Origin: Pseudomonadota bacterium
GTDB lineage: Bacteria; Pseudomonadota; Gammaproteobacteria; Xanthomonadales; Xanthomonadaceae
NCBI GenBank assembly: GCA_020161335.1
Contig: JAIUOJ010000009.1
Coordinates: 1 to 54,033 of the forward strand
Direction of reading: 5' to 3'
DNA: 54,033 nucleotides
This document shows positions 6,001-12,384 of the stretch, piece after piece. Each line of letters starts with the position of its first letter. Position 1 is the stretch's first letter. The position numbers and the translations under genes are program-made. The notes under the pieces were generated by a model. That model did no database searches. It had not been told where the DNA came from and worked only from the letters and a program-made list of their open reading frames with translations.

Positions 6001-9000
6001 GAAGCCGCTGGCGATCATCTCCGCGGCCGCGTCGCGGTAGGCTTCGACGATGCGGTCGATGTCGGCCCGCGAATGCGCGGTGGTCAGGAAGCAGGGGAAG
6101 TTGTCGAGGATGTGGATGCCGCGGTCGCGAAGCATCACGTACAGCAGGTCGCCGTAGGGCAGGTCTTCGGTGAACACGTTGCGCCACCACGAGGCGAACG
6201 TGACCAGCTTGAACGGTGCGCCCAGTTCGGCCATCGCCGCGTTGACGCGCGCCACCATCTCCGCGCAGCGCGCGTTGAGGTCGGCCTGCAGCGCCGGCCC
6301 GCACTCCGCGAAGTGCTGCAGCGAGGCGTGCGTGGCCGCCAGCGCCAGCGGATGGCGCACGAAGGTGCCGGCGAAGTAGGTCACGCCGACGCCGGGCACC
6401 GAATCGTCGCCGTACTGCCAGTGGCCGCCGTCGAGGGCATCCATGTACGCGCGCTTGCCGGCGATCACGCCGATCGGGAAGCCGCCGCCCACCGCCTTGC
6501 CGTAGCTGGCGATGTCGGCGCGGATGCCGAACAGGCCCTGCACGCCCTGCGGGTGCGCGCGGAAACCGGTGACCACTTCGTCGAAGATCAGCAGCGCCCC
6601 CGACTGTTCGGTGAGCGTGCGCAGTTCGCGCAGGAATTCCACCGGGCGGAAGTCGGGGCGCCGGCTCTGCACCGGCTCGACCAGGATCGCCGCCAGCTCG
6701 TGCGCGCGCGCGCGCAGCACCTGCAGCGTCTCCTCGGTGCCGTAGTCGAGCACCAGGATGTTGCGCGTCGCCTCCGGCAGGATCCCCGGCGCGGCCGGCA
6801 CGCTGCGCCCGCTGCGGGTGCCGCGCGCGATCACCTCGTCGAAGATGCCGTGGTAGGCGCCGTTGAACATCACGATGGTGCTGCGCCCGGTCACCGTGCG
6901 CGCGATGCGCATCGCGCCCATCACCGCTTCCGAGCCGGTGTTGCAGAACGCGGCGCGCTCGGTACCGGCCACCTCGCAGAACAGGCGCGCGGCGTCGCCG
7001 GCGAGGACGTGCTGCGGGCCGATCTCGTAGCCCTGGTCGATGCGCGCGTGCAGGGTTTCGCGCAGGAAGTCCGGCTGCCAGCCGAACAGGTTCATGCCGA
7101 AGCCGTTGAGCACGTCGATGTACTCGTTGCCGTCGATGTCCCACACGCGCGACCCACGCGAGCGTTCGACCACGATCGAGTACACCAGCTCCTTGGTCAG
7201 CGGGCGGAAGCCGTTGACCACGCGCGGGTCGGCCATGTGCGGCCGGTGTTCGGTGGTGTAGGCCTTGGATTTCGCGGTGCGCGCGGTGTAGCGCGCGACC
7301 AGCGCGTCCAGGCGCGCGCGCTGCAGCGGGGTGAGCGCGTCGCGGCGGGTGTGGATGCGCGCGATCGCGCCGAAGGCCTTGTTGACGTCGTAGCGCTGCG
7401 GGCCCTCGCCTTCCTCGCCCGCCATCGGCGCGGACGCGGGCGCGGACGCGGCGCTCGTGGCGGCGATTGGCGATGCGGCGGTCGTGCCCGCCGGTGCGGC
7501 CTGCGCCTCCAGGAAGGCGGCGAGCAGCGCGGCCGAACCGTGCTGCTCCATCACCTGGCGGAACGACACCTTCACCCCGAACGCCCGCTGCAGCTGCAGC
7601 GCGAGCTGGGTCAGCGCCAGCGAATCCAGGCCCAGTTCCAGCCACGGCGTGGCGGCGTCGGCGGCGGTCATCTCGACGCCCGAGACTTCCTCCACCAGCG
7701 CGAACAGGCGCGGCAGCACGCCGTCCGCCGCGACCGGTTGCGCGACCGCGGGCACGACGGTCGCGGCTTCGACAGATGCGGCTTCGACAGACGCGGCTTC
7801 GACAGATGCGGCTTCGGCGGCCGGCGCGGCGGCCGCCGCATCGCGCGCCGGCAGCGGCGCGGCCGACGCCTGCCCGGCGTCGATCCAGTGGCGCTGGCGC
7901 TCGAACGGATACAGCGGCAGCGGCACCTTGCGCCGGCCTTCGCCGGCGACCCGCGCCTGCCAGTCCGGCGCGACGCCCTGGGTCCACAGCCGGCCGAGCG
8001 CGTCGTCCAGCGCGTGTGACTCCTGCGCGGGCGCATCGGCGAGGCTGGCGATGATCGGCTGCGGCGCACGCCCACCGGGGGCGCACTGGCGCGCCAGCGT
8101 GGCAAGGGTGGCGCGCGGGCCGACTTCCAGCAGCACCCGCGAGCCGTCTTCCAGCAGGCGCGCGGCGGCCGGCGCGAACCGCACCGGCACGCGCAGGTGT
8201 TCGGACCAGTAGCCGGGATCGCGTGCCTGCGCCGCGGTCAGCCAGTCGCCGCTGACGGTGGACACGATCGGGATCCGCGGCGCGTCCAGGCGCATCGCGT
8301 CGAGGCGTTCGCGCAGCGGTGCGACCACCGGCTGCATCATCGCCGAGTGGAACGCATGCGAGGTGGCGAGGCGGCGCGCGACGATCCCCGCCTCCGCCAG
8401 CCGCGCTTCCAGCCGCTCCACCTGCGGCAGCGGACCGGCGACCACGCACAGCCCCGGCGCGTTCTCCGCCGCCAGTTCCAGGCCGTCCTCGAGCCAGGCC
8501 GCGACCGCGTCGGCCGACAGCCGCACCGACAGCATCGCGCCCGCCGGCCGTGCCTGCATCAGCCGGCCGCGCAGCGCGACCAGCGCGAGCGCGTCGTCCA
8601 GCGACATCACCCCGGCCAGGGTCGCGGCGACGAACTCGCCGATGCTGTGGCCGGCGAGCGCCGTGGGCGTGATGCCCCACGCCATCCACAGCTTCGCCAG
8701 CGAGTATTCCAGCGCGAACAGCGCCGGCTGCACGATCGCGGTGCCGACCAGCGCCTGCGGGTCGTCGCGCAGCAGGCGCGCGTGCGCGTCCTCGCCCAGC
8801 AGCGGCGAGAGCACCGCGCAGCAGGCGTCGTGGGCTTCGCGGAACGCCGGTTCCCCGGCATGCAGCCGGGCACCCATGCCCGGGTACTGCGCGCCCTGCC
8901 CCGGGAACAGGAAGGCCACGCCCGAAGGCGCGCCGGCGCGCGCGCCGGCCGCGGCTTCGGACAGCTTCGCGATCGCATCGGCATGGTCGGTCGCCACCAC

Positions 9001-12384: not shown

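Follow-up and report, generated by a model that had tools for sequence, protein, structure and literature searches.

An assembly line that loads an amino acid and passes it to a polyketide module ending in an aminotransferase raises the question of what it makes, how the product leaves and where it goes. Such a line is encoded at the edge of the 54,033-nucleotide stretch of DNA analysed here (the window), which is contig C9 (G000:C9:1-54033) of a 3.56-Mb genome in 252 contigs. The explanation that serves best as a whole, and that we put forward as moderately probable, is a three-residue hybrid PKS/NRPS line that would release a diamino-peptide toward a polysaccharide precursor. The synthase reading frame (12384..1, minus strand) stays open for 4,128 codons and runs off the contig start, with the following features:

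10795..12297, minus strand: A1, adenylation domain, code DALWYGGTFK (valine type); Pfam and alignment, boundaries by hand
10531..10752, minus strand: PCP1 (LGGDS); Pfam and reading
9190..10497, minus strand: KS; Pfam and reading
7975..8937, minus strand: AT, malonyl type by HAFH; Pfam and reading
7450..7677, minus strand: ACP (LGLDS); Pfam and reading
6055..7392, minus strand: class III aminotransferase of MycA type, Lys1963 of the protein; Pfam and PDB match
4645..5997, minus strand: C1 condensation domain; Pfam
3130..4617, minus strand: A2, code DICQWGVVWK (glycine-like, less certain); Pfam and alignment
2860..3087, minus strand: PCP2; Pfam and reading
1465..2832, minus strand: C2 condensation domain; Pfam
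1..1437, minus strand: A3, code DILQLGLVWK (glycine type), cut by the contig start; alignment and reading

Pfam finds three AMP-binding, three PP-binding and two Condensation domains in the synthase, together with the N and C parts of a KS, an acyltransferase and one class III aminotransferase; with direct reading this gives the order A1-PCP-KS-AT-ACP-aminotransferase-C-A2-PCP-C-A3(cut). The starter part, A-PCP-KS-AT-ACP-aminotransferase, occupies 12384..6055 (minus strand). An earlier note on this DNA had placed it at 6010-12384, in agreement with the stretch from A1 to the aminotransferase end, and its domain list (amino-acid-type A, PCP, KS, AT, ACP and class III aminotransferase) is borne out by Pfam and motif reading. 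The KS carries HTACSTS, EAHGTA and KSNVGH, the AT carries GHSIG and HAFH, all three carrier motifs have their Ser, both C domains have HHxxxDG, and the aminotransferase has SYGKAVGGG with its Lys; we take these motifs to have the functional meaning assigned to them here. HAFH, from which the note had called the AT malonyl-type, is read in the window, and a HAFH-type motif recurs in 76 of 78 runs from relatives. The proposed likeness of the aminotransferase to MycA also stands: its top PDB match is the MycA aminotransferase (6kfm, E 3e-114) and the Lys is kept, the Lys pattern being found in 89 of 95 relatives in a column that is >95% Lys. For A1, LgrA is the top PDB match, followed by further NRPS A domains, and the code is of valine type, consistent with the note's call of an amino-acid-type domain over an acyl ligase. 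We set aside a fatty acyl ligase or keto-acid starter because A1 is an NRPS A domain that keeps both Asp235 and Lys517. The only condensation domains in the window's assembly are those of this synthase, and the 3' end of the gene was not found there; in the relative G013, A3 is followed by a PCP with the tail GGFFGRLLSRFGKRRA, which ends the gene.

Substrate codes were read from the aligned A domains at positions that we take to map onto those of GrsA. Among published codes in excerpts of the cited papers, the nearest to that of A1 is DALWMGGTFK, assigned to Val (PMC3943440), and DAFWLGGTFK is also assigned to Val (PMC9113097); the Val starter that the note had offered as an example thus matches a published valine type, as a prediction from the code. 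The same kind of source gives DVQYIAHVVK (PMC9113097) and DVQFIAHVXK (PMC2866473) for Pro, DILQVGLIWK (PMC4169593) and DILQLGMIWK (PMC12283262) for Gly, and DFWNIGMVHK for Thr (PMC4169593), the last being tied to a modified Thr in the excerpt of PMC12283262. We read the glycine code of A3 as clear and that of A2 as probably glycine. No reductive domain, as the note had claimed, is present in the window or in 78 AT-ACP-AMT modules of relatives (AMT, the aminotransferase), where the AT-ACP gap of 72-147 aa and the ACP-AMT gap of 23-157 aa leave no room for KR, DH or ER. A malonyl AT with no reductive domain implies that valine is lengthened by two carbons and that the 3-oxo group is aminated, which would set amines on C3 and C4. 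The product is best read as 3,4-diamino-5-methylhexanoyl-Gly-Gly, so that the diamine predicted in the note is also our best reading, by domain logic. We are fairly confident that the diamino unit would be formed, and we think it likely that two glycines are added.

Several known systems share parts of this design. MycA-type lines have KS-AT-ACP, the same aminotransferase type and then C-A-PCP, with the class III aminotransferase before C as in the window, and ItuA and McyE are also KS-AT-ACP-AMT-C. The chain in MycA, ItuA and McyE is a fatty acyl or polyketide one, whereas the A-PCP of the window supplies an amino acid, and there are further differences in release and genomic setting. McyG is an A-PCP-KS starter that loads phenylpropanoids and has reductive domains, and on that general description McyG-type starters resemble the window in that an A domain feeds a KS. 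The MycA aminotransferase acts on a beta-ketothioester, according to the excerpt of PMC3870968, a 2013 survey whose Table 2 lists A-CP-KS-AT-CP-PLP1, the domain order of the window, for Pedobacter heparinus C6XWU5 and Thiorhodococcus drewsii G2E5C9. C6XWU5 is predicted there to give Nrp-Mal-Gly-Pk, the same amino acid-malonyl-Gly pattern as the window line; in the excerpt the entry is a table row only, with no product or polysaccharide context (PMC3870968). The Pedobacter relatives in our set have a proline-type A1 and a thioesterase at the end. In the literature searched, no siderophore or other known product was found for the line.

The layout is widespread. An AMT region is matched in 33 of 149 genomes of the family (Lysobacteraceae), from 12 of 54 genera and in a few cases at just 38-44% identity; all 19 of the 33 whose regions were fetched have the order A-T-KS-AT-T-AMT, which is not chance. 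Named genomes are represented by the best 80 loci among the matches listed, and after removal of four near-copies at >98.5% AMT identity, 95 loci were kept. Among the matches listed, an A domain ahead of the KS is seen in 56 of 78 kept named loci, although that of L115 is internal rather than a starter; the other 22 show none, many of them being cut by contig ends. The starter or a split form of it is shown by 73 of the 95 kept loci among the matches listed, with no A1 seen in 22, and the records of these 73 are labelled Pseudomonadota, Bacteroidota, Acidobacteriota, Cyanobacteriota, Verrucomicrobiota, Gemmatimonadota and Myxococcota, several of them being MAGs. A rare, isolated architecture is ruled out by the fetched family genomes and the kept named loci, and the near-novelty implied by the note, which knew of no common peptide family with such a start, gives way before the 73 loci and the row in the 2013 survey (PMC3870968). 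The starter is a known layout that had no explanation; what is unexpected is its setting and release. Three things were not in the earlier note: the setting among polysaccharide genes, the apparent lack of a thioesterase together with the pair of hydrolases, and a probable oxygenase.

Specificity of the starter varies across this range. Among the matches listed, the 73 loci divide into A1 classes of Val (27), Pro (23), Thr (5), DILxxGGIxK (5) and other (13), and on the AMT tree of these loci the class changes 20 times, with a minimum of 4 and a shuffled mean of 38. By this tree the starter is exchanged among relatives, and the aminotransferase stays. Outside A1, glycine-like codes account for 38 of 43 A domains in the 31-row clade of the window and for 73 of 111 across all kept loci. 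That A1 specificity varies while the AMT and the glycine-type modules stay favours an alpha-amino acid starter in general. The codes DILIIGGIMK and DILVLGGILK occur in L044, L045, L027, L031 and L035, a single clade, and we know of no published substrate for them. Gene 1 of relatives has 200-380 residues before A1; this N-terminus has no Pfam match in L042, L048 and L031, and ahead of A1 in L057 (4169-5062) there is a condensation-domain fragment at E 3e-6, below the cut-off.

How the chain leaves the line is suggested by the genes beside it:

12372..13163, minus strand: hydrolase 2, distant TIGR03101 relative, below cut-off, with Arg at the nucleophile position; profile search
13256..14059, plus strand: hydrolase 1, distant TIGR03100 relative, below cut-off, with Cys at the elbow GICSG; profile search
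14075..14956, minus strand: 4'-phosphopantetheinyl transferase, true start probably inside; weak HetI/AusB match, below cut-offs

Both hydrolases are of the alpha/beta kind, and the end of hydrolase 2 overlaps the synthase start by 13 bases. Neither hydrolase reaches its curated cut-off (84.8 of 168.45 bits for hydrolase 1 against TIGR03100, 98.9 of 202.75 bits for hydrolase 2 against TIGR03101). With the elbow placed by motif, hydrolase 1 has G-x-C there in 34 of 34 sequences and hydrolase 2 has Arg at the nucleophile position in 30 of 31. Within the window's 31-row clade, a thioesterase domain is seen in 6 loci and not in 25 (3 of these 25 being cut); hydrolase 1 lies nearby in 25 and hydrolase 2 in 23. 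Across the 74 lines with a visible end, 21 loci with cut or unseen ends having been set aside by hand, 6 have both a thioesterase and hydrolase 1, 41 the thioesterase alone, 21 hydrolase 1 alone and 6 neither (p 2.8e-8, loci treated as independent); for all 95 loci the same four classes hold 6, 44, 24 and 21 (p 1.8e-5, loci again treated as independent). On the tree there are five independent pairs for these two traits, about two showing opposite states and about three without a hydrolase 1 difference. Lines without a thioesterase end in a carrier with a short basic tail: the median charge of the last 20 residues is +4, versus +1 for the others (p 2.5e-8, kinship ignored, in a comparison that takes in mid-line or wrong-frame ends from L024, L030, L097, L105 and L120). 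Lines of Bacteroidota and Rhizobiales end in an ordinary thioesterase domain. The window's line probably has no thioesterase, and release by the hydrolase pair seems a good bet. With one partner active and the other not, a carrier on which the chain would wait and a tail of positive charge, a membrane transferase seems likelier than simple hydrolysis. Where gene 2 ends in the Lysobacter-type loci L031, L044, L045, L027 and L035, we observed an unusual carrier-thioesterase-carrier order with a tail, the thioesterase being Pfam-confirmed in L031. Upstream of the pair in G013 (L021:5877-8734) lie free-standing ACP, KS and acyltransferase genes; this ACP was seen in no other fetched locus, and the KS and AT match other loci only as ordinary PKS domains.

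A further gene accompanies many valine-type lines. It encodes a Cupin_8/JmjC-like protein, over the cut-off for Pfam Cupin_8 and JmjC_2, in which the HxD...H metal triad is invariant (9 of 9 and 19 of 19). In the window's clade this candidate oxygenase occurs with 13 of 17 valine-type loci and 0 of 12 others (p 5.9e-5, kinship ignored), a count in which L043 is a 30% match and from which the window and L023 were left out as cut. Its link to Val is represented by three independent pairs on the tree, and weaker homologues turn up outside the clade in loci of Thr and Pro type (L083, L084, L086). The gene directly follows the line in L041 and is close behind it in G013; it was not found in the window's assembly, where that side of the locus is missing. 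The JmjC-like oxygenase may hydroxylate the valine part in many valine-type relatives. With just five independent pairs for thioesterase and hydrolase and three for Val and oxygenase, no sign test could fall to 0.05; once kinship is corrected for, the trait correlations are lost, and the p-values based on independence are unsafe.

The destination of the product is suggested by a second kind of neighbour. Every PF02397 polyprenyl-phosphate sugar transferase was located in 26 of the 33 family genomes, which have one or two each; in the seven left out, the AMT stands at the end of a contig or close to one (G084, G119, G120, G135) or the match is weak (G062, G115, G137). Of these 26 Lysobacteraceae-family genomes, 23 have such a transferase within 20 kb of the AMT, where 0.32 would be expected by density; the three that do not are exactly the window's own group, G000 (the window's genome) and its two nearest relatives, G013 and G089. 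In a wider set of 38 further genomes, chosen from 80 loci and with G177 being G100 again, a transferase stands within 25 kb in 15, against 1.32 expected, and in 11 of 34 once Lysobacterales are removed. The Burkholderiales G154, G156, G157, G171 and G173 have no sugar transferase within 25 kb, and in G174, of the same order, it is 38 kb away. Kinship among the genomes makes the p-values for proximity too small. At E 1e-30, 9 of the 10 genomes tested have no C domains besides those of this line; in G013, other NRPS loci are >400 kb from its sugar transferase. For the window itself, it is its relatives that suggest a polysaccharide link.

One sugar transferase, from the single Lysobacter-type relative tested, scores over the cut-off for TIGR03013 (XrtA/PEP-CTERM). 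Homologues of it were found by tblastn in 28 loci, none of them near the line in the window's group. The genome of the tested transferase also encodes a TIGR03016 outer membrane protein, at a greater distance. With a TIGR03013 transferase in the relative tested, this TIGR03016 protein and distant TIGR03100/03101 hydrolases near the line, the loci may resemble XrtA (exosortase A)/PEP-CTERM loci, but most genomes lack the exosortase and neither hydrolase scores over its cut-off. The exosortase (PF09721) is found in only 13 of 149 family genomes and not in the window's genome, so the XrtA label is borrowed, and a true XrtA system is ruled out by the missing exosortase. Nor does the line simply stand in for the PEP_1 ligase known from XrtA loci, since a PEP_1-type ligase and the line occur together in G028, G022 and G067. 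Behind the line in G013 lies a flippase-like gene that scores 27.1, just under the Pfam cut-off of 28.2. The window's genome has a 60% homologue of it, truncated where contig C1 ends and suitably oriented, so that the line-then-flippase order of G013 is plausible there too. The reading frame after the G013 line has no Pfam match; it may belong to TIGR04325. A DnaJ-domain protein (one Pfam-tested) stands by the sugar transferase in some loci, for example at L042:2282-2998 and L031:1632-2324, with homologues in 24 fetched regions by tblastn.

Together these data lead us to propose the following course. A1, by its code, would load valine onto PCP1, and the KS would join it with malonyl-ACP to give 4-amino-3-oxo-5-methylhexanoyl-ACP. 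As there is no ketoreductase, the 3-oxo group would be aminated by the MycA-type aminotransferase to yield 3,4-diamino-5-methylhexanoyl-ACP, and C1-A2-PCP2 and C2-A3-PCP3 would append two glycines. The chain would then wait on the terminal carrier, which the basic amphipathic tail could hold at the inner membrane, until hydrolase 1 (Cys nucleophile) and hydrolase 2 (no nucleophile) detach it, the chain being either freed or, likelier, passed to an acceptor. The likeliest acceptor of the diamino-peptide would be a lipid-linked sugar precursor, because related lines lie in exopolysaccharide loci; as the family often lies among surface-polysaccharide genes, the product may be part of a slime layer or made together with one. 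Whether the function of the line is tied to polysaccharide we judge to be evenly balanced. Covalent attachment of the peptide to polysaccharide is a tentative idea, and we hold equally loosely the wider proposal that this widespread PKS-NRPS family makes short cationic vicinal-diamine peptides as exopolysaccharide substituents instead of free metabolites, with a two-subunit Cys acyltransferase, one alpha/beta hydrolase active and the other lacking a nucleophile, passing the chain from a membrane-tethered carrier to a lipid-linked sugar. The pattern that such substituents might follow, again as a conjecture, is a variable amino acid, a malonyl-derived beta-amine, Gly and Gly. If true, many orphan PKS-NRPS genes of soil and water bacteria would share beta,gamma-diamino acyl-glycine peptides at an unexpected site, the polysaccharide coat, joining assembly-line chemistry to matrix biochemistry. 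The lines would be a source of chiral vicinal diamines, and the proposal would account for the way a lone NRPS is retained next to the one polymer-initiating sugar transferase of its genome.

Other fates of the chain have to be weighed against this course. The diamino unit could belong to a free, secreted short peptide (a signal, metallophore or antibiotic), the polysaccharide genes being mere neighbours or co-regulated and the pair hydrolysing or cyclising the chain. That the window's cluster includes its own phosphopantetheinyl transferase, that Bacteroidota and Rhizobiales lines terminate in thioesterases and that several loci have no sugar transferase nearby make this a serious, if lesser, possibility; that 9 of 10 Lysobacteraceae genomes have no other line and keep this one next to their only EPS transferase argues weakly the other way. 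The chain might also be lost early: 4-amino-3-oxo thioesters have a chemistry in which the gamma-amine attacks the thioester or an intermediate, which would give a 4-amino-pyrrolinone or, from Pro, a 1-aminopyrrolizidinone and leave the glycine modules little flux. The alpha-amine is indeed free, no N-acylating domain standing before A1 in the window, but two intact and conserved C-A modules follow, and we regard this outcome as quite improbable.

The vicinal diamine itself would be missing if A1 loaded a keto or hydroxy acid or a pre-hydroxylated valine, or if a trans-acting reductase came first. An A-domain code is a prediction, and the oxygenase accompanies most valine-type loci of the clade; yet A1 has the Asp235 and Lys517 pair, Pro- and Thr-type A1 domains share the layout, and no trans reductase was noticed among the window's neighbours, so that we consider this unlikely. 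Decay of the synthase into a silent copy, to which the lack of its 3' end in the assembly might point, is a very remote prospect when the whole frame is open and its active-site residues are intact. The contig of G089 likewise begins inside the gene, and contig breaks at repeated A-T-C modules are usual.

At the other end of the window, positions 44600-54033 have a low GC content (0.54-0.57 versus 0.67-0.76) and contain palindromic repeats between small open reading frames, 12 copies of 76 nt and 15 of 43 nt, spaced by about 350-1700 bases. We take these repeats (TAACGCC...GGCTTGAATGAATTGTTAGGC) to be attC-like, and by its sequence the region is an array of integron cassettes in the chromosome. 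Another contig (C105:434-1375) encodes an integron integrase that passes the TIGR02249 cut-off.
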